From Xanthostigma xanthostigma (lineage: Eukaryota > Arthropoda > Insecta > Raphidioptera > Raphidiidae), in contig OY754468.1 of assembly GCA_963575645.1 (NCBI GenBank), positions 51,967,665-52,031,664 of the forward strand: 64,000 bases of DNA. The letters are read 5' to 3'. Each line of letters starts with the position of its first letter. Within the stretch, counting starts at the first letter, position 1. This document shows, in pieces, positions 31,301-63,238 of this stretch. The notes under the pieces were generated by a model. It saw only the letters and a program-made list of their open reading frames with translations, was not told the origin of the DNA and made no database searches. Position numbers and translations under genes: made by a program.

Positions 31301-34300
31301 GCGGCAACGACGTCCGGCGCCGCGACGCTATCCAGAAACAGACGCGACACGAGAACTAACGCGATAGGTCAAACGGGCAACCAATCGGGCAGTTTTTCGG
31401 CGACGGCAAACGATGAAGGTAACTTTCAAATCTATCAGACATAAACTTATTATGCATTGGCGTAGCGAGAGGGGGGGGGGCAGGTGAGCCTGGCCCACCC
31501 TGCAACATTATCTCGCACGTTGAAAACAAAAGTGGCATTATGTAAAAAATGACATTTTACAGTAGAGCATTTTTTAGTTTTAATATTACTGTTTTGTCCT
31601 AAAAAAGTTACTATTAAAATACTGCTTATAGAGATTCTTTTGTTAATAATGAGACAATTTATTATTGTTTTAATTTATTTTTTGACCACAATGTTAAAAA
31701 TAAAGTTATTAAAAAAAAGACCTTTTTACAATAATTTTTTGTTTAGTGTCATTGTTGTCATAACCGATAATCAGTAAATTGGAGACTTCAACTGCAAAAA
31801 GTGTCACTAAACAAAATGTGTCATTTTATGTATTTACTTACTTGCATTAATTTTTGTAGCAACTGTAATCGCAATAAACTGTCGTTTAACAAAATGTGTC
31901 ACTTTTTCACTTACAGCGACGTGCGTACCAAACAACTGCTTTGACACAATCAAAATAGTGTCGTTATATCAGTCATGACCATGGGCAATTCTTTCAAAAT
32001 ATAAAGTGACACTAGCTCAGTCTAGCGGAAGTAAGTGGGTTTATGAGCAAACGAAAATTTTCGTATAGTGACACTTTTGCAGTAAAACATGAATCTTACA
32101 AAAGGTGAAAAGTCAACTTTTTTATATAGTGTCACTATTGTTTTCAACGTGCGATTTGTGTTCTCGTACAAATAACAAGATAAATCTACAATAATCTACG
32201 TTTTCTTTGTCGTGAAATTTCTCCAGAAAATCGTGTTGCTCGATTTTGCTTCTATGAACAGTTTTCAAATTATATATAAGTAGCAGTAATGGTAGGTAGA
32301 GTTGAAAATTTGGCTCCCCCTACGATAAAATCGTTGCTACGCCTATGGCGAAATGCGGCTAATGGTTATTCATAATAGACGGAGAGCTAGCTACGGAAAT
32401 AGGTTTGCAATTTATAGAGCAACGAAATTGATTTTACAACCCCTTTGTTGCCCATCCACTCTCACACCCACCGCTGAACAGCTGCCAGGCGCCCGGATTA
32501 ATTAATAATGATAGTATGGCACACTAACTAGAGGGATTTCGTTGCTCTATAAATTGCAAACCTATTTCCGTAGCTAGCTCTTGGACTATAAAGGAAATCG
32601 AATGTTGGGCACTGAAAGTCAAGGCTTTTCCCGTTAAAATGCTTTATTAAAATAATTACGATCTTTTTCCTCAAAATTACAAAGTTCTAAAAATTATTGA
32701 TGTTTGACTTCATAAAAGTTAGATTAACATTATGTTACAAGTACCTACGAACCAATATTATAAAAATGGCTGTATAAATAAATGCCTTTTTTATAAGGGT
32801 GAAATCAGCCCCGGATCTAGGGGGGTAAATTGGGGCAGTTTCATGGGGCGCCAAAATCATAATATAATATAGTTGAAAACCACACCCAATCTACCCTTTT
32901 TTCGATTTTTTTTTAAGTAATTTATCTCAAACGCCGGAGAGAGGGGACGCTATTATTGAGTTTCTGCCCCGGTTCGAAAAAATCGTAAAATAAAAAGAAA
33001 TCGACTTACATTTGACTCAAGCTCTGGAGGGGGGATCCGGACCCCCCTCTCTACCTACGCCACTGATTAAGGGTAAACAACATATCACTAACTAGAACTT
33101 TTCAGTAAAAAAACTGAAAACTCTCATGTGATAAAATCATATTTCTCTCAAAAAAACAGTGCTATCAAAATAAATTTTAAATTTCATTTATTGTTATATA
33201 ATCATAATCATTACAAAATAATAATATGTACATAATTATTAAAACTAAAATTATTACACAAAGTGTATAATTATACGTATTATAAACATCGGGAGCGAAA
33301 CAAAAAAAGTTCATACGATGTCCAACTCCCGAAATTTGTAAAAGATATCCATTTACAAATATTAATATCAGGTACAATCACCGTGCAAATAAAATATTTA
33401 TAATTATCGTTCCTTTTAAAATATCAATTTGTAATATCAAAAATGCATTTTAAACACTTTAAACTAAAATGTTACACCACAAGGACCGAAAGTGTGATAA
33501 TCTTGCCCTGTGCGCGAGGGGCAATGATATCACACTTTCGTCCAGTGTGGTGTATACTATTTTTCTTCATACCTCGGTCGTAAGCACGCTTATTAAATAC
33601 ATTAATTAATTACATAATAACAACACAAATAAATTCCAAGCAAGAAGCTTTGAGGTTATGCGTCAAAACAAGAATGACAGCTGTTCGCGACTATTAGCTA
33701 AACTGTAATAGAGTTGCTATGGAAACGGCATCTAAACAAATTGGTTGTTTTTGCTTTACTACCGCACGAACTTCCCGTATTGTAAGCATGTAATACCACC
33801 AAGGAGTGAATGTTAGACTATCTGCCTTTCAATTGGTGCCGAAAGTATGCACTTTCGAACGAGATATGAAGAAAACAGCAATTTATTTCGTGGTTTTTAA
33901 TTAGTATTGCTAAAAATTTGAATAAAAAAATTTACACTTTTATTTTTCCCAAAATTCAAAGTTCATGACTTGCCCGTACCATCTCTTTCGATAGAAAACA
34001 TCCTTTTATTTCGTGGTTTTTAATTAGTATTGCTAAAAGTTTGAATAAAAAAATTTACACTTTTATTTTTCCTAAACTTCAAAGTTCATGACTTGCCCGT
34101 ACCATCTCTTCCGATAATCTGAAATAGATTCGACCAAAACCTTCGGATTACCGTTAAAACTTGACGGCACGTATTCAAAATCAATTACCCCCGTGAGATT
34201 GTCTTCATCACTGAACCCATCTTTCGCGAAATATCTAGTCCTTTTCGACGGCCTACCAGCAGCTGCTGAAGTACGTCGTCTTTTCTTGCAATTACCATTT

Positions 34301-37300
34301 TTCTGATATGCGGCCAGGTCTTCGTTCGATGGCGATGAATATTCAACGCTCATAAAGCTAATCTTCCGATCTCTGTGAACATTTTCAAAGGAATTTAGTT
34401 TTACGGACGCAAAAGAGCGATCTTTTCCGCCAAATTGTGTTTTAGAATAGCTGGACGGCGACGAATATTCAACGCTCATCATACTTACGGTTCTCTTGCG
34501 ACCCCTATTTTCTTCAGAATCGCTGCTGTATGATTCCGTCGGCATTAATGTCGTATTTTCAGAAACATTATTGATATTTTCATCATCTGTGGTCGTATCT
34601 TCATCCGAAGACATTTCAGAATCTTCATTGAACGATGACAGATCATCATCATAAGTTATATCGATATAGTCATCATCATCATCGTCGCTGGTATCATCAG
34701 CCGATGAATCATAATAAGTATCCGAACCTTCGGGTGATAAGGTCTTATCTAATGCTTGAAACGATGATCGAAAACTGCTAGCATGTCCACGAGACGTCGA
34801 AGGTAAATTAATATTTTCGTAAGGCGTCGGATCAACGTCCATGAAACTAATCCTGTCCCGAGTAGGTTCAGAACTGGTGGATGGAATGTTTTCGAAATCC
34901 ATCAAACTCCCTTGGCGCTCGGGTTTCGCCCTCACTTGTCGATCGCGTATCGTCCACATGCGTTTTTCGTGTCTCGTCTTCAGTCTTTTGTCAGGTATCG
35001 CTCTCATTTTTCTTTGAGTTCGCGTCCAAATTTTCCATTCGTCTGCATCTGCTTTTCTTTTCAATCCCGACGAGTCTTCCGTCTCGTTGGCTTCGCGTTG
35101 TTTCTTTAATTTGAGTTTTCTCTCTCTTTCTAGCGCGCGCATTTTTTCAGGAGTTTCGTCAATTTTCGAGGTAATAGTTTTCTTGACTCTTGTGAGCGGT
35201 CTATTTTTGGGCAAGTTCTTGATCCGTTTTTCAACGGTAGATCTTAGCGGTTTACCTTTCGAGAAAAGCAACACTTTAGCGACCAAGGACTGTATTTTCT
35301 CTATTTCGGCTTCTGATAGATTGGAATGTTTCAACTGGAAAAAAAGAAACAAAAAAATAGAAACTTGATGACTTCAAATACAAATACATTTATAAATAGA
35401 CTAGCTCTTCGGTCCGGCTTCGTCCGAGTAGATTTTCGTTCGACAACGAAATAATTAAGATCAACAAATTTAAATCGCGAGCGGAAACCCCATCTTGCTT
35501 TAATATTTGCACACGCCATTTTGAATGAAAAACACATAAAAATGGAAATTAGCAGCCGTAAAAATTGACAGATTTAATACCGTGATATTATAAAACGTCA
35601 CGGATTTCATTTTCAATTAAGTTTGGATGCAAATGTTTCCCTTATTCGAGCAAAATGCTCTGCCATCAGAATGATGTCCGTTTGACAAATCCCTATAAAA
35701 AATAATATTGACATAATATAAATATAAAAAAAATGTTTATATTACTTATATTCACGAATTTAATCCCATTTTCGCCCGAGAAGCTAGCAAACAAAACACC
35801 AAAGTAAATTAATTGTTTTGACAGTTAATTTAAAATTATTGTTCTTTTGGGAAAGCATCTACGATTACAAAATATATTTCACTAAAAAATTTATATACTC
35901 ACCAACAACCTTTTCAACACTTTTTTTAAATACTGCAGTTGAGCGGTACGAAAATGCATTTTGACACTTTAAAACTAACTGTTCAAATGTTAGGATGATA
36001 TTAAATTATTGTTAATGGTAATATACACTCTAAACTGAGGTTATGTTAATAAGTACGTTAAAACAGATTCAAAATCAATTTATAAAACCAAAATCACTAC
36101 CTGTGTTAAGTATTCCTTTCCATAGACTTTCTGATACGATTTTCAATTTAAATTCGAAATTTAAAAATTTCAACTACCTACATTCTACAGATTTGAAATA
36201 GCATCAGACACCGAATATTCAAAGCAATGGCACGTCAATCCGGTGTCGGAGAGGCAACCGGATGGCGAGTGGTAATCTGGGCCTATGAGTGGTGCAGAAC
36301 CCCCTGGTAGCGGCCAAAGTGACCCCAAATGGACGGGGGCGGCGATATGGGGGTGGGGCAAAATCGAAAAATGTTTGAAAAGGCAACCGGATAAAAATGC
36401 GGTTGCATTGAAGGAAATACCCTAATTATATAATAATTTTTTTTTGCCATCCGAACCACGCGGGCCGTTTTTGCACTAGCGAATGAAAAAAAAATTAAAA
36501 AAAAACTGAAAAAGCAACCGCTTCAAAATTAGTGAGCATACTTATTGACACCACCAAACGTTGGAAAAAAATTGCCATCCGATCCTGATGGGCAGTTTCG
36601 GAGAAACAACCCTTCAAAGTCGCCGAAAAACACTTTTTTTCGATTTTTTCAACAATAAGTAAAAAAAACACACTAAAAATTGTTCAAATCGGATGGCATT
36701 CGAAATTTATACTGTCCTAAGTACAAATAATAGTGTGTATCAATGCCATCCGATTTCGATTAAATTTACCCCTATTTAGCCACCCCCAAAACTCATGAAA
36801 ACAACAATTTTATGCAGCGTATGGCATTATTTTTATTGTTATTGAGTTTTGGGGGTTGGCTAAATAGGGGTAAATTTAATCAAAATCGGATGGCATTGAT
36901 TCACACTATTATTTGTACTTAGGACAGTATAAATTTCGAATGCCATCCGATTTGAACAATTTTTAGTGTGTTTTTTTTACTTATTGTTGAAAAAATCGAA
37001 AATAACGGTTTTTCGGCGACTTTGAGGGGTTGTTTCTCCGAAACTGCCCATCAGGATCGGATGGCAATTTTTTTCCAACGTTTGGTGGTGTCAATAAGTA
37101 TGCTCACTAATTTTGAAGCGGTTGCCTTTTCAGTTTTTTTTTTATTTTTTTTTTATTCGCTAGTGCAAAAACGGCCCGCGTGGTTCGGATGGCAAAAAAA
37201 ATTTATTATATAATTAGGGTATTTCCTTTAATGCAACCGCATTTTTATCCGGTTGCCTTTTCAAACATTTTTCGATTTTTCCCCACCCCCATATCGCCGC

Positions 37301-51588: not shown

Positions 51589-54337
51589 ATGAGCAAATTG
51601 GACGATAATATCAACATCGACGAACCTCGGTATGATCAAAGCACTTTCGAAGGAAGGGCGTGTCATTTTTTTGTCGTCACTAATCCGATAAATATATTCG
51701 CAACGAGCAAACAACTAAATTGGGCCAAAAATGTGGTGACAAGATATCGGTATGTATGTACCTATTTGAAATTATTTATTAATTTCTATAATTGGAGGCA
51801 AATTTCGAACGAAAACTTAAATGCGTTTAGTGTACAATTTTAACTATTTTGACATAAAAATATATTCCAAACAGAAACAAAGAAACACTACCGGGATGTA
51901 TAGACGAGGAAACTTTGTGGAGAGCGAAAGCGCTTTACGATTCGGCTTTTCATCCCGAAACCGGAGAAAAAATGATGCTGATCGGAAGAATGTCGGCGCA
52001 AGTACCGATGAACATGTTGATAACCGGAGGAATGATGACGTTTTATAAATCGAATCCGGCGGTCATTTTCTGGCAATGGTTAAATCAAACGTTTAACGCC
52101 GTTGTTAACTACACAAACCGCAGCGGAAGTTCACCAATATCGACCGGACAACTGTTAATCTCGTACGTACTGGCGACGGGCGGTGCTACGGGCGCGGCGT
52201 TGGGTTTGAATCGAATCGCTTGTTCTTTTCCTCCGATTGTTGGACGAATGGTGCCGTTCGCTGCGGTGGCCGTTGCTAATTGTATTAACATTCCATTAAT
52301 GCGATCTCAAGAATTAAAAGAAGGTAAATAATCGACTTTAGTCAAGGGTACAAACCTATATAAATATAGTTTAAAAAAAAACTAAAAAACACACTTTATA
52401 TCGAACTAAAAGGTAAAAAATAATTTTTTTTAAAATAAGCTTAAAACAATAATGAATAAAAAATACAAGTATTGTGAAAAAGCGTGGGGCGCTTTGTTCC
52501 ACATTTTCGTACATCGAGCGCGCCACGCTTTTTTCACAATAATACTTGTATTTTTTATTCATTATTATTTTAAGCTTATTTTAAAAAAAATTATTTTTTA
52601 CTTTTTGGTTCGATATAAAGCGTGTTTTTTAGTTTTTTTTAAACTACATTTATTTTGCACTTTTTAGTTCGATTTATTGTCAAAAATTTGCCGGAAAAAA
52701 AACAATTTTTTTTTTCGGCGTGGACGGGATTAGAACCCACGACCCGTGATTCCGAGAGTTGACGTCAGCGAAGACCCTTGCCTTAGACCGCACGGCTAGC
52801 CAGTGTACTTACAGAGCTGGCATATTATACCACTATATAAACCACTTGCTGTAGTCCAAACGAGCTTACAAACATACATACTTATATACATACATACAAA
52901 CTTACAAGTGAAACTAATATAAAGCGTGTAAAAAATAATTCCAGAACACACACATTAAGAAGGTTGAGCCGTTTTACGAAAATAATGAAAAAAATCTGAA
53001 ATAAAGTTTTTTTAATAGATTTTTATGACAAAATTTTCTGTAAAAAATCCAAAATCATTAGATTTATAAAGTTAAAAATTAAAAAAAACTTTTACATGTA
53101 GTCTTATGGAAAATATGTCAAGCTAGCATGCAAACTGTTCATTTTAATTTTTTGCAAATAACCAAATAATGTCAGCAGTTCCGAAAACTATCTATGTAAA
53201 GCATCGATGTCTTACGCATATTTTAATATTTTTTTCCAATTTAATTAAGAGACTTTTAATCAATAAAAAAAATTATTAAACCTTAGCACTTTTCGATTAT
53301 GGACTTTTATTCTTGACAGATTTAACAATTTTAACTGAATTTTCAACTTTTTAATGATTTAATTTTAATTTTTATTACTTCTAATTTCTTTTTTTAATTA
53401 TTTACTGCAAAAAATATGTAAAATACAGATATTTACATAAATTTATTTTTTTTAACCTAACTGTACAAAAAATTCAAAAGTTAGTCCATTAAGTATAAAG
53501 TACTGAAATAATTAATAAATACTAAAAAAATTATTTTTTTATGCCTTTATGACAATAATTTATTGGTATCATCGACTTATATACTATAAAAATTCCCATT
53601 TAGAATTCGACTTACTTTTGATTGGGACTGTAACTGATCAACCTCCTTAACGCAGTCGCATCTATATTACTTACGGTCAAACTCCTACGAACGCATCGAT
53701 AAATAATTTTTTCGTTCTCCGATTATAAGCTTTCTATTTTACAGGCATCGTAGTGACAGACGCGAATAAAAACGAACTCGGCGTATCGAAGAGAGCAGCA
53801 AAAGTCGGTATCGCAGCAGTAGTTCTCAGTCGTATTATTATGGCCGCTCCGGGAATGGCTTTGACTCCTTTTGTAATGAATCGACTGGAACGAAGAGGTA
53901 CGCTGTGTCGATATCCGTGGGCCACACTTCCGATACAAATAGGACTGCTCGGTGTTTGTCTCACATTTGCTACCCCATTGTGTTGTGCGCTCTTTAGACA
54001 ACGACCCGGCATCAAAATTGAACGTTTGGAACCCGAACTTCAGGTAATTTTTGTTTTCGAGTTGAATCGTGAACCGGTCGAAAAAGTCGCTTAGTAGTAA
54101 AATAAATGTCAGTCCGCGTTTATTGCGCTTTAAGGTGATCTAAAAGTCTGATGCCAGGGTTTTAGTGAATTTTTCAGGGCTAAAAAAAGCATTCGTTTTG
54201 CTACTATGCGTACATTTGGATCCCTATATATCAGGGATTACCAATAGTGCTAATAAAATTGTCTTGATTTCTTCCAGGAAAAAATCCTCAGTATGGAATG
54301 CCCGCCAAAAGTAGTTTACTTTAACAAAGGACTATAA
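51589..54337 (+). CDS. Sfxn1-3: Sideroflexin (SFXN1/3 type), mitochondrial inner-membrane amino-acid carrier, complete
   Basis: Exons 51589-51749, 51875-52323, 53745-54043 and 54278-54337 give 322 aa, the standard family length. Family hallmarks are [16 protein letters not shown] near the N-terminus, [85 protein letters not shown] and the C-terminal VVYFNKGL. Sideroflexins are multi-pass inner-membrane proteins; SFXN1/3 import serine for one-carbon metabolism. The first exon continues in frame past its donor (AGATATCG|GTATGT) but the joined product matches the family. Intron 2 holds a tRNA/hairpin element and a TTAA MITE. AATAAA lies at 54452-54457. The subfamily (1/3 rather than 2) is judged by eye. 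Confidence 0.96.
52363..52905 (-). mobile_element. Family F: tRNA-like head plus long hairpin, copy 2
   Basis: Reverse orientation of 28958-29492. The hairpin is at 52363-52675 (tip GTGGGGCGC...GCGCGCCAC) and the tRNA-like part at about 52805-52717 on the minus strand (box B-like GGTTCTAATCCC). A (CATA)n tract follows at about 52875-52905. It lies in sideroflexin intron 2. Confidence 0.75.
52955..53650 (+). mobile_element. Family D TTAA MITE, copy 3
   Basis: TTAAGAAGGTTGAGCCGTTT at the left and TGATCAACCTCCTTAA at the right. Same orientation as 18200-18900. It lies in sideroflexin intron 2, 94 bp before exon 3. Confidence 0.8.
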
Positions 54338-54811: not shown

Positions 54812-57800
54812 TTAAACAACAAATCGACTGTTTTCTGGGAAAGCAGCAGGTTTCATCATTTTCCACGCAGCGGTAATAGCTACGCTCGGAGTATGCGTTA
54901 GCCGGACTGTTTCGCTGAATTCGGGGAACGTCATATAATATCCTAGAAACAAACGTTTTATACTTACACAAAATCTACAGTATGTAAACACGTAAGGTGA
55001 AATTAACACTGGGAAAAAATGACTGGATCAGAGTGAGCCTTGAAATCTTGTTTTTCAATTAGACAGATAATATTCTTTTGCAAAATGAATGTGTATACTA
55101 CCGAAGAAAATATTCAAATGATTACAACATGATCGGACTTTTTTTGTTAATGGGACATTAAATTCCCAAAAATACTTAAATATGGTGCGAGATCAAATAT
55201 CTCCGCCTATTCGTGTCGAACCTAAAGATATTGGGTCACTGATTTACCAACGCGCATACGTCATACCAGTCAGACAATTTTTGAATGAAATGTTTCCAAA
55301 CAGATGGAGTTGTTTTTTTGTTTTATTTTTGTGCAAAAAAATTAAAATAAATGATTTATAAGAGCTTTTTATTATTAAAAAAGCCAAGTAAAATAAAAAT
55401 AAATCAAAATAAAATAGAAATCCTCAATATTACCACGATAATTCAATAGAAATAACAATTAATGTAGTTATGGCTAACTCTGATCCAAGTATTTTTTCCC
55501 AATGCTAATTTCCCTATGTGCACCTTACGCGTTTACATACTGTATACACTTACACTCATTGATTCAAGATAGCAATCCGGAACGCTAGTTTGTAAGTGAA
55601 CAAAGTTATGCGGTTCAACCAACGACGACTAAACTGTACGAAAGCCAAATGTCTGTTTTATACTAATGGGGTTACGCGACAATTTTGCTAATCCCTAAGG
55701 GATCCGCAGGCGACAAGTTTGGAAAACACTGCTTACCCGGAAACCAAGGCGGTAGAGTTGAGCCGCGCAACTGAACTTTATTTGAATGTCTTGGAGGCTC
55801 GGGTATCAATAAATATTCCAAGCCGCGAGATTCCAACGACGGCATATCATTCGCTTGGGCCTGTGTCGAAGAAGGCGCAGCGCCGATCAGTTCACTCATG
55901 GCCGTGTCGTCTAAATTCGGTGCATCTTTTTCATCGTCAGTTTTCTTAGATTTCTTCGGCGATCTTATTGTCCGCCACGAATCTCTGCCCGACTCGGAAT
56001 AAATATGATCGTGTGGTCTTTGAGAAGTACTCTGTGTTATTATAACGGCCCTTTCAAATTCTGAGTTCATCGTGCTTCTCTGCTGCGCCGACGGGCTTGA
56101 AATCGGAACTACAACGTCCTAAACAAAATGACGGTCGATAAAACAAGCGAAAGTTTCGAACAGCCAAAAGCGTTTCATTTAAGGAAGTACCCTCGATAAA
56201 TAAATTAACAAACAGAAAATTACGAAAATTTGCAGATATGTCGAAACCTTTTCAAAAATGACTCAGTTAAATTTTTGTGATCTTTGGTTGACTTTGAAAA
56301 AAGATATTGATAATTTTATTTCGCTGCACTTAACATGGAGTCTTATGGGAATCTGTGATTTTGACGCACTCCATCATTTATTACGTTGGAATTGACAAAC
56401 AGATTTTGATAAAATTTTGAGGAAATATAAACGAATATTCTAAGAACATTTTTCTTTTTCCAAAACGTACAAAGCTTGCTTATGTTAATAGAAATAACTT
56501 AAACAAAGCCGAGATTTTTTAGCAATTCATAAACATGGCTACACCGCAATATTATAGGTTATGGCGCTTTATTCCAAGGTAAGTTACGAAACTGCAGCAA
56601 TTTCGATAACGTTAGAACATACGTAAATTGAGTAAATGCTAAATGCTATCGTACAATTTTTTGGAAACTTTTCTTCCCTTCCAATAATATCTTTTTTCGC
56701 TCATTTTCATAAATTAATGTCAATTTGACGAATATATACGGATACCGCGTGCTGACTATTCTATGCTGCGTACACTACAGCAAGGAGTGCGGTGTTGCCA
56801 AATTATATACTACGTTACTCAAGTAGAAGACTGAAATTCTTTGACTTACTGCGTACCGAGGGTACTTCCTTAAATCCAAATAACGATAATAAAAACAACC
56901 GCAAACAATTGAATCACTCACCTGTAATGGAGCAGGACCAGCCGAACTGACTCCAATAACGGGTTCTCCACTTTCGGGAAACAAATAGTTGTATATTCGT
57001 GTCGGGGGAGAACCCAATGTAAGACCTTTCTCCTCCGTATGCATTATCGCAGCTGCCACTTCCGGTTGCATTTCTTCTGTCGGATCGTCCGCGGTAATAC
57101 CCAATTTCGATGACTTGAAATAAAAATAAAATCGATTCAAAACGTGCACGGACCGATATCTGATTTTTACGGAACGACCGGATATGCAAGTAACCGAAAT
57201 AAATAAAGAAAAATTGGTTGTCTGTAAAGTCGGTTTACGGACGATAGTTTTACGTGATAACGTATTCCGTAATACATAACCTAAATTTTAGTAGCTGTCA
57301 AACTTGGGCCGAAGCATACTGCGCTCTCGCTTGCACGCACAGGGTCAGGCGGAACGTTACACTTTTTCGTGCGTGCAGCCGGTGTTTCATCAATTTATAA
57401 GACGTTATCACGTCAAAAAAATTAAATTAATTACTTCTTCCAGTATCACCATAGAACGGGACTGGGCACGCATTTGGTTCAACTTTCTTCTTAGCACATA
57501 TTTTTCAGGCTTAAATGAAGCTAGTTCCATCGGCATCAAATTCATCGCTATATCAACGTCTTCATTTTCTTCTTCGATTAACTGCTTTACTAGTCTTGGA
57601 TCGTTGTCTGGAGTTCTTTTTGAAGTCTAAAATTTTTTTTATTGATACATTTTTTTATCTTACGGATAAGTATTAAAATAATCAATACATACGACAGTGC
57701 TCGTTGAAATTACAGTTTCCTTCGACGGTTTTGTAAACTTCTCCGTTACGGTAACAATGTCATCTCCGGTCGCTGATTTCGAATGCGTCTTTTTAAATTG

Positions 57801-60800
57801 AAAATCGGTGTTAGACAAATCGACAAAGTTTAAAAGATAATTTGATAATATCGAATAAAAACTCATAGAATAAATTAGGTTCGTTCCAAGCAGCCTCGAA
57901 CGGTAATGAAACCGTATACAGTCTTGTCACTGCGCAAGACTAATTTGCGCACTAGCTCAAAAATCGATACTGCGCAAGACAGTCTTGCGCAGTAACAAGA
58001 CTGTGTACGGTTTTGTTACCGTTCACGGCTGCTTGGAACAAACTTATTATAAACACACCACTGATTTTTCGTGTATCGAATCATCACCGGAAGACACTTC
58101 TGCCCATTGCGGTGCAGATATATTAGATATATCTAGCTCGGGACTTCCGGCAGATGATTTGTATGAAAACGGTGACCAACTCGGTGGAGTAACATCTAGT
58201 CTTGGTGTTCGAGGACTCCTAATTGGCGACCTCCTCGGTGTCCGAGGACTTCTGATCGGAGATCTTCTGGGAGCCTGTGCTATTATAGAACTATCGTGTA
58301 TCGGCGTCCTCGGGCTCCTTTGTGGAGATTTTTTAAAAGACTGAAAGCATTTGTTTATTAATTCAGACACCATTTCGTTGCGTACTAACATTCGTTCGCG
58401 TAATGCCGATTCTGACAGAAATTACATCTTAACTTATAAAAAATGTTCTAGATACTCGGATACCAACTACGAATCGATAGCGTGCCAAATTTCATCAAAA
58501 TCGGACCAGTCGTTCTCGAGTGACGCGCGTACAAATAGACAAAAATTTCAAAAAACGCGCAAGAAAACAAAATTAAAGATTAGTTCAATTAAATAAATGT
58601 AAGTAAAGTTATTTACAACTGATTCAGCATCAGATGGCAGTTCGTCCCAATTTGGTGGCGTCATTGCAAAAATATCCCGCTCCGGGCTCCCAACAGACGA
58701 CTTATATGAAAACGGTGACCATGCCGGAGGAGTTACATCTAATCTTGGTGTTCGAGGACTTCTGGTCGGAGATCTTCTGGGAGCCTGTGCTATTATAGAA
58801 CTATCGTGTATTGACTTCCTCGGGCTCCTTTGTGGAGATTTTTTAAAAGACTGAAAGCATTTATTTATTAATTCAGATATGTATACGTTGCTCCTTAACT
58901 TATAAAAATTATTCTAGATATGCTTTACGTTTGGATACTAACGACGAATCGATAGCGTGCCGACTTTCGTCAAAATCGAGCCAGTCATTCACGCATATAA
59001 AAAGGCAAAAATTCCGAAAATCGCGCAAAAAAGCAAAATTAAAGATTAGTTTCATTAAATAATTGTAAGTAAAGCTATTTACAACTGATTCAGCATCAGA
59101 TGGCAGTTCGTCCCAATTGGGTGGCGTCATTGCAGAAATATCCCGCTCCGGGCTCCCAACAGACGACTTATATGAAAACGGTGACCATGCCGGAGGAGTA
59201 TCATCAAATCTAGGTGTCCGAGGGCTTCTGATCGGAGATCTTCTGGGCGTCTGTTCTATTAAAGTACTATGGTGTAACGTTGTCCTCGGGCTTCTCTGTG
59301 TAGATTTTTTAAAAGACTGAAAGCATCATATATATTAATACGCTAAGGTTAAAGATGTTTGCCTCCCTTTTTAGAAAAAACATCACAATTTCTCCACATA
59401 AATTATATATCATTTTACAGATGATTGCTTGTTCTACTGACATCGACAACTAAAAAATTTGTTATTGCTTTTGTTTTTGTAAATTAATTAAAATACAGCA
59501 ACGCTGAACAACGTCTGCCATCTAACGGCTTTAATTTTGAAACAACGTCGATCTGTCATCTGACCTTCATATTGTAATACAACAGACACAATACTGCATA
59601 CTGCCATCTGACGGTTTTTATTTTGAAACAGCAAGCAACGCTGAACAACGTCACAGCAATGCTGCATGATGCCATCTGACGGCTTAGCTCAACGCTTTTG
59701 CTACTTGCGCCTCTATATGACAATTTTAGTAAAATATTTCTTCGATCTGTCATCTGAGCTTCATATTGTAATACAACAAAAAGAAGAACGTTATAAGCAG
59801 TGTGCAAAATTAGAAACGAATTGAATACCATATTTAAAAAATAATTTTGTAAAGTGATAATTATTATACTTATTTAGTACGAATAATTCGCACAGGTCAC
59901 ACTAGTTTGTTTATTAATTCAGACATCATTTCGTTGCGTACTAGCATTTATCAACATTTCCATTTGCGTAATGTAGGTTCTGACAGAAATTTTATCTTAA
60001 CTTATAAAAAATATTCTAGATATGCTTTACGTTTGGATACTGACTACGAGTTTCGTCAAAATCGAACCAGTCATTCACGCATATAAAAAGGCAAAAATTC
60101 CGAAAAACGCGCAAAAAAACAAAATTAAAGATTAGTTTCATTAAATAACTGTAAGTAAAGCTATTTACAACTGATTCAGCATCAGATGGCAGTTCGTCCC
60201 AATTGGGTGGCGTCATTGCAGAAATATCCCGCTCCGGGCTCCCAACAGACGACTTATATGAAAACGGTGACCATGCCGGAGGAGTTACATCTAATCTCGG
60301 TGTCCGAGGACTTCTGATCGGAGATCTTCTGGGCGTCTGTTCTATTAAAGTACTATGGTGTAACGTTGTCCTAGGGCTTCTCTGTGTAGATTGTTTAAAA
60401 GACTGAAAGCATTTATTTATTAATTCAGAAATCATTACGTTACTCGCTAGCATTAACCAGCATCTCCGTTTGTGTAATGTCGGTTCTGACAGAAATTTTA
60501 TCTTAACTTATAAAAAATAGTCTAGGTATGCTTTATAGGCCCCACTCACGATCAAACTTCATGCCACAGTTCAGTGTTCAGTGAAGTTGGACCGATTAAT
60601 CGAAAGACTGACTGGCACCACACACAGTTCATGCAAACTGTTCATTTTTTAAAAATTTTTTGTGTTCAGTTTGGTTCAGTTGTTGGCATACACTCGTCGA
60701 GTATAGATGCATAAGATATATTATATATATTATATACACACTATAATATTATACTATAGAGTATAGTTCATTAATAAGAACTAAATGAGTAATTTAAATG

Positions 60801-63238
60801 GTGAGGATTGGCTGTTCATAGCTATGGGATTATATTTAAAACAGAAATAAGAAAAAAAAGAAGAATATGGGTGAAAAATTGGTTAGAAATGCGTAATTCA
60901 AGAAGTCATGTTTATTTGATTAATGAATTACATCTTAGCCGCTTGATTGGAATAATTATTTACGAATGGATGAATTAACTTACAATTATTTACTGGAATT
61001 AGTTACCCTATTTATTAAGAACCAGGACTCAAATATGCAAAAATCTATTTCTGCCCAAGAAAGACTTGCAGCAACATTGAGATTTTTGGCTTCTGGTTGT
61101 ACAAAACACAGAACTCCAAAAACTGAACTGAAAAAAACCCACACACACAGCAGTTTACTTGAACACTGAAGTCGTTCAAAAATCAAGATGCATTTGATGA
61201 GTTCATGCTTGACTTCAGTGTTGGTTTCAGTGTTTATTTGTCCCACACAGTATCATGCTTCACTGAACTATAAGTTTGAACACTGAACTGTGGCATGAAG
61301 TTTGATCGTGAGTGGGGCCTATTAAGTTTGGATAGACTACGGATCGATAGCGTGCCGAGTTTCGTAAAAATCGAACCAGTCATTCACGCATATAAAAAGG
61401 CAAAGATTCCGAAAAACGCGCAAGAAAACAAAATTAAAGATTAGTTCCATTAAATAATTGTAAGTAAAGCTATTTACAACTGATTCAGCGTCAGATGGCA
61501 GTTCGTCCCAATTGGGTGGCGTCATTGCAAAAATGTCCCGCTCCGGACTCCCAACAGACGACTTATATGAAAACGGTGACCATGCCGGAGGAGTATCATC
61601 GAATCTAGGCGTCCGAGGGCTTCTTCTTGGTGTTCTTGGACTCCGTCGTGGTGATCTTTATATAAAAAAATTATTTTAATATGCAAACAAAAGTCCGCAT
61701 TGATTTCGAAAAAACCGAACGCGTATTTGAAAAAAAATCTTACTTGTCTGATTCAGACGAACCGTCAAACCGTTGAGTCCTGTCAATCTACAAACAAAAT
61801 ATTTATCATTAAAATTACTTGCTGGGTTGCAGAAAGGATTGTCAAACAATTTGATTTGACAATGAGTGATTAAATCTGCGCAGCTGACTTGAACTCTTAC
61901 TCTCTGTTCCAAGAAGTCAACGCCTGGAATCCGTCTACGAAATTCGTCGTCCGATACGGCAGTCGGTCCGTAATAAACACTGCCACTCTGGACATCTTGC
62001 TCACGGTAATAATCCAGATCAGGATGTGCTGGCACGTGTTTATCTCGCCAGTTGTATTCAAGGTCGAGTGGTAAATTTTCTCTTAATTGTTCCCGCAATT
62101 CTCCCTGCAGTCAAACAAATGAATCACAACAATTGACTATATAACCCCGCCATTTTACATTTCAATTGAGTTTTGCAGCTACGCTTACGCTACCTTACGA
62201 TTAAAATCGAAACTAAATCATGATTACTTTCAGACAGGCCTGCGATATTACGTTAGGTAGTTTTTAAGCATTCATTTATGTTGATAATTCTGAATTATGT
62301 TGCATAATTCTTTCATCAATGTGACAGCTGACCCGCATGCATAAATTCCTAAAATACCGTTTGTTAATTGATTATTAAACACTGACGACGTCAGCTGTCG
62401 AGTATCTATAATTTACAAGCTATCTATCTTAATTGATTCCGATGGAATTGTCTTTTTTATACATTATCTGTTTTGTTTAGGTACATGAAATTTTAATCTA
62501 TTTCTATATCATCATATATATTAATACGCTAAGGTTTAAGATGTTTGCCTCCCTTTTTAGAAAAAACCACACAATTTCTCCACATAAATTATATATCATT
62601 TTACAGATAATTGCTTGCTCTACTGACATCGACAACTAAAAAATTTATTATTGCTATTGTTTTTGTAAATTAATTAAACTCTGAACAACGTCTGCCATCT
62701 GACGGCGTAACGTTAACACTTCGATCTGTCATTTGACCTTCATATTGTAAATACTGCATACTGCCATCTGACGGGCAACGCTGAACAACGCTTTTGCTAC
62801 TTGCGCCTCTATATGACAATTTTAGTAAAATATTTCTTTTACAACAAAAAGAAGAACGTTATAAGCAGTGTGCAAAATTAGAAACGAATTGAATACCTGC
62901 AATCATATTTAAAAAATAATTTTGTAATTAGTGCGAATAATTCGCACAGGTCACGCTAGTAACCTCTTGAAGTAATAACATTTTCACATACCGGACTTGA
63001 ATAAACAACATCTTGGTCAGGTCTCGTGTACTGCATAGGTATTCGGTAAGGACCAGCTGAAACGGACAATTTACGAAATTTCAAAAAACCGGCAATACAA
63101 ATAATATTGTTTTCAATAAACAAAACAGCTCAAAGCAAATTTCATCATTTACCTTTTGGTTTGACAGCAATTTCCCTAATAACGGTCCGCGAGCCATCGG
63201 GTTTTACAATCTTAGTTTTTGAAACAGTAACCTTTGCC
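54812..63238 (-). CDS. Unrecognised Ser-Pro/Arg-rich protein with a five-exon tandem array (5' end missing)
   Basis: Fourteen exons join in phase into about 846 residues: 63238-63153, 63056-62992, 62104-61901, 61787-61744, 61655-61478, 60402-60169, 59316-59083, 58850-58617, 58340-58059, 57788-57693, 57626-57450, 57113-56922, 56118-55737, 54942-54812 (TAA). The first exon needs two bases from an upstream exon; none with a start was found. N-terminal part: VSKTKIVKPDGSRTVIREI, GPYRIPMQYTRPDQDVVYSS, LDYYREQDVQSGSVYYGP, VSDDEFRRRIPGVDFLEQR. The middle repeats RRSPIRSPRTPRLD...WSPFSYKSS...SPE five times. The C-terminal part includes LVKQLIEEENEDVDIAMNLM and YMTFPEFSETVRLTHTP. No catalytic motif or membrane segment is seen. 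The S-P/R-S-P sites suggest heavy proline-directed phosphorylation (inference). It converges with sideroflexin. Confidence 0.78.
54978..55542 (+). mobile_element. Family B mariner-like MITE, copy 3
   Basis: CAGTATGTAAACACGTAAGG to ...GTTTACATACTG, TA at both ends (54976-54977, 55543-55544). It lies in the last intron of the minus-strand Ser-Pro gene, 36 bp upstream (gene sense) of the last exon. Confidence 0.85.
56120..56920. other. Intron of the Ser-Pro gene, nothing recognised
   Basis: AT-rich stretch between the exons at 56922 and 56118. 'GGAAGTACCCTCGATA' (56185) and 'GAGGGTACTTCCTTAAA' (56859) form an inverted pair, suggesting a foldback or TIR element spanning about 56180-56880. Confidence 0.5.
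57209..57418 (-). mobile_element. Family A repeat, copy 6
   Basis: AAAATTGGTTGTCTGTAAAG to GACGTTATCACGTCAAAA. It lies 31 bp after the donor of the exon ending at 57450 of the Ser-Pro gene. Confidence 0.75.
57893..58039. mobile_element. 147-bp foldback MITE next to a splice donor
   Basis: GTTCCAAGCAGCC... and ...GGCTGCTTGGAAC ends, with inner matches GGTAA..AAACCGTA(T/C)ACAGTCTTG and CTGCGCAAGACT. It begins 19 bp beyond the donor of array exon 5 (exon end 58059). Confidence 0.75.
59326..59905 (+). mobile_element. Non-autonomous Helitron, copy 2, 8 bp from a splice acceptor
   Basis: TCATATATATTAATACGC to CACAGGTCACACTAG, with ACGAATAATTCGCAC just before the end, inserted between A and T. In gene sense the element's 5' end is joined directly to TGCTTTCAG, the acceptor of array exon 59316-59083. 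Flanks GAAAGCA|TTGTTTATTAATTCAGA restore the sequence seen uninterrupted in sister units. Confidence 0.88.
60536..61321 (+). mobile_element. PIF/Harbinger-type element, internally deleted
   Basis: The TIR is TAGGCCCCACTCACGATCAA and its reverse, about 40 bp, flanked by TTA duplications (60533-60535 and 61322-61324), as expected for Harbinger. It lies in the intron between array units 1 and 2 of the Ser-Pro gene. It carries a broken transposase remnant. Confidence 0.85.
60784..61120 (+). pseudogene. Harbinger transposase N-terminal remnant
   Basis: The segment reads MSNLNGEDWLFIAMGLYL, then an in-frame stop, then a basic stretch ending WLEMRNSRSHVYLINELHL. A frame change follows to MDELTYNYLLELVTLFI and ISAQERLAATLRFLASG. 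The last parts resemble the conserved region before the DDE domain in PIF/Harbinger transposases. The catalytic domain is absent, so the copy is dead and would need trans help to move. Confidence 0.75.
62512..62959 (+). mobile_element. Non-autonomous Helitron, copy 3
   Basis: TCATATATATTAATACGC to CACAGGTCACGCTAG, with GTGCGAATAATTCGCAC, a perfect 7-bp stem, ending 9 bp before CTAG. Inserted between A and T. It is shorter than its sisters through internal deletions. It lies in the intron before exon 62104 of the Ser-Pro gene; the element's 3' end is 32 bp from the end of exon 62992. Confidence 0.88.

Follow-up and report, generated by a model that had tools for sequence, protein, structure and literature searches.

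How did a single gene come to carry five related exons in a row, and what would such a row do to the protein it encodes? The question is raised by a predicted gene of Xanthostigma xanthostigma (Insecta; Raphidioptera; Raphidiidae) within 64,000 nt of DNA that we call the window (GenBank assembly GCA_963575645.1, contig OY754468.1, positions 51,967,665 to 52,031,664 of the forward strand). An array of five related predicted exons, U1 to U5, lies on the minus strand of the window, from 61655 down to 58059. The three internal exons, U2 to U4, are hybrids of the two outer ones, which we call sister exons A (U1) and B (U5). Each hybrid has its acceptor and 5' half from B, and its 3' half, donor and intron from A. 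This pattern is the one that repeated unequal crossing-over inside coding sequence would leave.

An earlier note on this DNA had described five related exons in one gene, and our analysis bears out that description together with the ends it gave. U2 to U5 have in common the acceptor context gctttcag/TCTTTTAAA, and U1 to U4 the donor GAATCAGTT/gtaaat (slash, splice junction). Its further claims that three units are exactly 78 codons long (U2, U3 and U4, each 234 nt) and that all five are open also hold. U2, U3 and U4 differ from one another at 7, 21 and 23 of 234 nt, and U2 and U3 are 96% identical in protein; U5 matches U4 at 75% of nucleotides over the matched part. U5 contains an extra in-frame 33-nt copy of RSPIRSPRTPR, and without splicing at its donor the frame reaches a TAA three codons on.

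The array is confined to one locus. A DNA query with U4 against the 623-Mb genome found at least five places, all of them U1 to U5, and with a U5 protein query five of the seven scored candidates were U1 to U5, with no stop in any; both counts of genome matches are lower bounds. The sequence repeats comprise four 300-nt copies, of which three are 85-97% identical to the remaining one, together with five members of a 165-nt family at 64-72% identity to their reference copy. These two families, and the five genome places found by DNA and by protein, argue that the array is not a product of chance. Adjacent homologous predicted exons of one gene, on one strand and with duplicated intron between them, are the marks of tandem exon duplication. 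U2 to U5 also have symmetric phases (0/0); U1 (2/0) does not. We think an assembly artefact unlikely, as the units differ in sequence and carry different insertions.

What was duplicated? Intron DNA had been thought to be copied with each unit, so that whole exon-intron units multiplied. Both ideas are supported, the second in a sharper form: what repeats is a block that spans an exon's 3' half, the intron after it and the following exon's 5' half, rather than one exon with its intron. There are four such blocks, R1 to R4, which measure 520, 506, 466 and 510 nt after two transposons are removed. The introns preceding U2 to U5 are mutually homologous. The R4 intron matched the R3 intron but had no match in the sequence preceding U1 or following U5.

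The hybrid nature of U2, U3 and U4 is plain when their halves are compared with the outer exons. Their 5' halves match U5 at 93, 93 and 101 of 108 nt, respectively. Over the 126 nt of their 3' halves they match U1 at 119, 121 and 119 positions, but U5 at only 87, 86 and 86. A maximum chi-squared (Max-chi2) test places the switch from U5-like to U1-like sequence at exon nt 107, 104 and 107 when U5's first RSPIRSPRTPR copy is used, and at nt 122, 89 and 122 when the second is used. In all six tests, each with 5000 permutations, no permuted value was as high as the observed one. The break zone falls at or near the RSPRTPR repeat. Internal units that are hybrids of both ends, with the break in homologous sequence, are what is expected of an array grown by crossing-over.

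U1 and U5 are far apart, with 0.216 nonsynonymous substitutions per site (dN) and about 2.0 synonymous ones (dS), which is near saturation. Given this distance and the hybrid pattern, the pair most likely came first, as old sister exons, and U2 to U4 would have been made by unequal exchange in the coding core that the two have in common. We propose that A and B mispaired at this core (RSPRTPR...TPPxWSPFSYKSS) and crossed over unequally. Each exchange would add one block, made of the A 3' half, the intron and the B 5' half, and would thereby create a hybrid exon with the B acceptor and the A donor; repeated exchanges would give U2, U3 and U4. Each event would extend the protein in frame, as the hybrids are 78 codons long and phase 0/0. 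We infer this order of events. Overall distances between blocks are 0.069-0.131, with R1 and R2 closest, and intron distances are 0.078-0.176; the block distances suggest that the events were spread over time. U2 groups with U3 and U4 with U5 in the 5' half (4 and 6 differences of 107), with 14-19 differences between the groups. The break in U3 differs from that in U2 and U4, which points to more than one exchange or to later conversion.

Two transposons lie within the array, a miniature inverted-repeat transposable element (MITE) and a Helitron-like element (Table 1). Each interrupts one block and is therefore probably a passenger that arrived once the blocks existed. The MITE, whose ends were read by eye and whose inverted repeat (I2) is 90% complementary, is presumably PIF/Harbinger-like. 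We take the end features of the other element to be the marks of a non-autonomous Helitron. Just 9 nt of native intron are left between this insertion and the U3 acceptor, so the U3 branch point has to be inside the element or on its far side; the TATTAAT-containing end of the element may now supply it. A second, shorter Helitron-like copy occupies an upstream intron of the gene (62512-62959), with 89-92% identity in the three longest matching pieces. A palindromic MITE-like element at 57871-58051, with 84-nt arms that are 83% complementary and a 13-nt spacer, starts 7 nt past the predicted U5 donor.

Table 1. Predicted exons, repeat blocks and transposons of the array and its surroundings, in window coordinates.
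Feature	Position	Strand	Remarks
Upstream exon AKVTVSKTK...	63153..63238	-	86 nt
Upstream exon AGPYRIP...	62992..63056	-	65 nt
Exon GELREQ...FLEQR	61901..62104	-	204 nt, phase 0/0; precedes array; one DNA match in the 623-Mb genome
Exon before U1	61744..61787	-	44 nt, phase 0 to 2
U1 (sister exon A)	61655-61478	-	178 nt, phase-2 acceptor, phase-0 donor
U2	60402-60169	-	78 codons, phase 0/0; hybrid with B-type 5' half and A-type 3' half
U3	59316-59083	-	78 codons, phase 0/0; hybrid; Helitron-like insertion 9 nt before acceptor
U4	58850-58617	-	78 codons, phase 0/0; hybrid
U5 (sister exon B)	58340-58059	-	94 codons, phase 0/0; predicted donor GTG/gtgtgt
Exon after U5, THSKSATGDD...	57693..57788	-	phase 0/0
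Downstream exon TSKRTPDN...	57435..57626	-	phase 0/0
Downstream exon SSKLGITADD...	56922..57113	-	phase 0/0
Block R1	60296..61604	-	U1 3' half, intron and U2 5' half; interrupted by MITE
Block R2	59210..60295	-	interrupted by Helitron-like element
Block R3	58744..59209	-	
Block R4	58234..58743	-	
MITE	60536..61321		786 bp; U1-U2 intron; inverted ends TAGGCCCCACTC..., TTA on both sides
Helitron-like element	59326..59905	+	580 bp; 5' TC; 3' near-palindrome, then CTAG; between A and T

Are the units joined in one mRNA? The gene model has 13 exons (U1 to U5 and eight flanking ones) and runs from an ATG at 69734, past the window end, to 56922; it gives 859 codons without a stop and has GT-AG at all 12 introns. 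The earlier note held that every unit can be joined or skipped without a frameshift. This is true of U2 to U5, which are phase 0/0; U1, with its phase-2 acceptor, cannot be skipped alone. Nine of 12 exon joins tested were open, six with both the 44-nt exon and U1, and three with neither. The three joins that separate U1 from the 44-nt exon ran into 6-7 stops. (The U5 used in these joins was one codon longer than in the final model, which leaves the phase unaffected.) We favour joint inclusion, perhaps with some units skipped because the donors of U1 to U4 are weak, and we infer that in most mRNAs several units, or all five, would be spliced together into a disordered region of about 387 residues.

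The predicted product of the array is 387 residues long, with 19% serine, 17% proline and 11% arginine, and 79% of its residues belong to types frequent in disordered regions by an assumed list of residues, which is not a disorder predictor. It holds 48 of the 54 serine/threonine-proline (S/T-P) sites of the predicted protein, the other 472 residues holding 6. Seventeen of the 48 have the form S/T-P-x-K/R, which we take to be a proline-directed consensus of the type used by cyclin-dependent and mitogen-activated protein kinases, and the array is thus dense in such sites. The module TPPxWSPFSYKSSxGSPExDI is identical in all five units except at the x positions. Every unit has two PPxW-type motifs, the second of which is APQW in U5. 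The composition and motifs point to disorder and multivalency, in a region that proline-directed kinases could reach. Joined units would multiply the phosphorylation sites and the paired PPxW-type motifs, and the protein could then bind a partner, or itself be switched, through many weak sites. The repeat-growing, phosphorylation-rich region, one of two readings offered earlier, fits the sequence better than the other, alternative or mutually exclusive exons.

The sequence itself shows an array at a single locus with its blocks and hybrid pattern, and open frames that resemble exons and have splice signals. The best explanation as a whole combines an older pair of exons that grew by unequal crossing-over, joint inclusion of the predicted units, and a multivalent region in the protein. 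We think that this combination is probably correct.

Selective constraint on the units bears on this account. Pairs of blocks have 2-7 differences over the 127 sites of the 3' exon half, compared with differences at 7-16% of intron sites. This half is slower than the intron in all six block pairs, with p<0.01 in three (R1R4, 0.0072; R2R4, 0.0003; R3R4, 0.0007; other pairs, 0.41, 0.13 and 0.053); the block pairs share branches and are not independent. Between U1 and U5, the proportions of differing synonymous (pS) and nonsynonymous (pN) sites in the 3' half are 0.65 and 0.23. Each of the three pairs among U2 to U4 shows more synonymous than nonsynonymous change in the 5' half (p 0.03-0.05). Aligned exon halves are free of gaps; aligned introns carry several.

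Several observations weigh against the account. The donors of U1 to U4 have a duplex energy with U1 small nuclear RNA of -1.6 kcal/mol, about the median (-1.5) of 416 regional GTs; the other nine donors of the model range from -1.9 to -12.4 (U5, -4.3; first exon, -10.2). An in-frame TCA/gttgta, 3 nt inside the exon, scores slightly better (-2.3), and the exact donor is uncertain. Between exon nt 60 and the end of the open frame in U1 to U4, other in-frame candidates are TCT/gttggg, 78 nt inside the exon (-2.7), and TGC/gtgaat, 90 nt beyond it in three of the four units (-2.0). We retained GTT/gtaaat (-1.6) because its position matches that of U5's better donor, not for its strength. The acceptors have 7 pyrimidines of 15 in U2, U4 and U5 and 9 of 15 in U3, compared with 8-13 of 15 in six of seven other scored exons and 5 in the seventh. 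On the side of constraint, synonymous sites in the 3' half are also slow among U2 to U4 (pS 0.016-0.05), which offers homogenisation as an alternative to protein constraint. Total change in the 5' half is not below that of the intron over the six block pairs: it is faster in R1R3 (p 0.027) and R2R3 (p 0.012), slower in R3R4 (p 0.012), and no different in three. The comparison of Ka/Ks between units that the earlier note had proposed gave only moderate dN/dS among U2 to U4, 0.31-0.42. Under neutrality, four units still had open frames in 10.6% of the 20,000 simulations, so open frames alone are weak evidence. Finally, gene conversion could yield part of the hybrid pattern, and the U3 break is unlike that of U2 and U4.

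The weak donors of U1 to U4 make skipping of single units plausible. Taken further, the units could be cassette exons whose number varies by tissue or stage, with splicing tuning the modules from one (U1) to five. The five joins tested that drop one or more of U2 to U5 while keeping the 44-nt exon and U1 are all in frame, and shared weak donors with pyrimidine-poor acceptors are typical of regulated exons. The 9 nt of native intron before U3, with the branch point in the insert or beyond it, could lower the use of that exon. However, exonic enhancers may compensate for weak sites, and the donors are near-identical copies, so that their weakness was inherited once and should not be counted four times. 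We regard cassette use as possible but doubtful.

Alternatively, only the old U1 and U5 may be used, U2 to U4 being recent by-products that are mostly skipped and drifting. The higher dN/dS among the hybrids (0.31-0.42) than between them and U5 (0.15-0.18) would fit such drift, as would the intron-like rate of change in the 5' half, the transposons in two introns beside U2 to U4, and the weak splice sites. Yet U2 to U4 contain no stop, their aligned halves lack the gaps seen in the introns, and the 3' half is better conserved than the intron. The donor of the hybrids is U1's and their acceptor U5's, so they are no weaker than the old exons at these sites. We consider this unlikely.

A more novel account seems improbable to us. 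This would be an actively recombining coding array in which crossing-over within the exon changes the number of phosphorylation and docking modules between individuals or related species, and the skipping of weak units retunes it, a rheostat both genetic and splicing-based for one disordered protein.

Mutually exclusive choice of one unit per mRNA, enforced by competing RNA pairing or by frame, could explain the identical length of three exons, but it is very unlikely and the earlier note's suggestion of it finds no support: U1 is not exchangeable because of its phase-2 acceptor, so the units are not interchangeable at both junctions; the six joins with the 44-nt exon and U1 are all in frame, and decay would not remove multi-unit mRNAs; the introns between units are not short (at least 232 nt); a search for docking/selector pairing in three flanking introns, at one window size, found no site above shuffles (7, 5 and 18 of 40 were equally strong); and with proteins as alike as those of U2 and U3, choosing between them means little.

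Past the predicted donor, U1, U2 and U3 have a further 46-57 codons of open frame (61477-61339, 60168-60018 and 59082-58911, minus strand) and U4 has 22; if the intron were retained, the protein would gain a short tail. More 3' exons are likely beyond the model, where there is an open frame at 55675-56118. A Pfam scan of the array and the given flanking exons found no family at the cut-off; rubredoxin (E 0.23), P9_TM (E 0.24) and DUF6907 (E 0.18) were weak. A PDB sequence search gave no match at E up to 1, and a plasmid search, run as a negative control, gave no match. Open frames inside the predicted first intron (L006:2404-4539, minus strand; about 66304-68439 in window numbering) are apparently transposon-derived; one of the two pieces scanned matches Pfam DUF7869 (E 1e-6), and the other matches none. 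Elsewhere, an open frame at 51858-52328 on the plus strand belongs to a sideroflexin gene (Pfam SFXNs, E 1.1e-67), and a serine-rich open frame of 433 codons with an acidic stretch, at 34075-35373 on the minus strand, matched no Pfam family.

The locus provides a worked example of the in-frame growth of a likely disordered repeat region, with parents, hybrids and break zone all in one place and with transposons that mark the relative order of events. If the units are joined in mRNA, recombination within exons would be linked to the number of phosphorylation sites. That genes grow repeats by unequal recombination is already known as a general process, which can be followed here in detail; the new result is the probable origin from two sister exons. 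In the open-licence literature we found no paper that treats exon duplication jointly with disorder, with the number of repeats or with sites of phosphorylation.

Dscam-type clusters of mutually exclusive exons are, like this array, tandem homologous exons within one gene. Unlike them, the array has U1 as a unit that is not interchangeable, and neither the joins nor the three introns tried showed anything that would enforce exclusion. Tandem exon duplication in general is well described, and one paper names nebulin and dpy as outliers (PMC9013439). As it describes obscurin, homologous exons of similar length lie in one gene with repeated sequence in the intervening introns, as here; the obscurin exons are ascribed there most likely to non-homologous recombination (PMC9013439), whereas our breaks lie in homologous coding sequence. 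It also describes hydra of Drosophila, where exons were recurrently duplicated near a rolling-circle-type element, DINE-1. The hydra exons are reported to be alternative first exons, seven of nine flanked by DINE-1 (PMC9013439), in contrast to the internal coding exons here. Our Helitron-like element stands beside one unit only and probably did not drive the duplication.

By analogy, the closest known case is teleost piccolo b (pclob). There, a central pclob exon that starts and ends in frame 0 is amplified 8-16 times, single exons are gained or lost while the structure of the rest of the gene is unchanged, and the proposed mechanism is unequal crossover of neighbouring exons within their homologous coding parts (PMC3484663). 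The likeness lies in an in-frame exon array and in proposed crossover within homologous coding sequence. The zebrafish exons are 702-1350 bp and carry a zinc finger (PMC3484663); ours are 234 nt and, by composition, suggest disorder. The pclob history was read from several species (PMC3484663), whereas for the array of X. xanthostigma a single genome suffices to read both parent exons together with the break in the hybrids.
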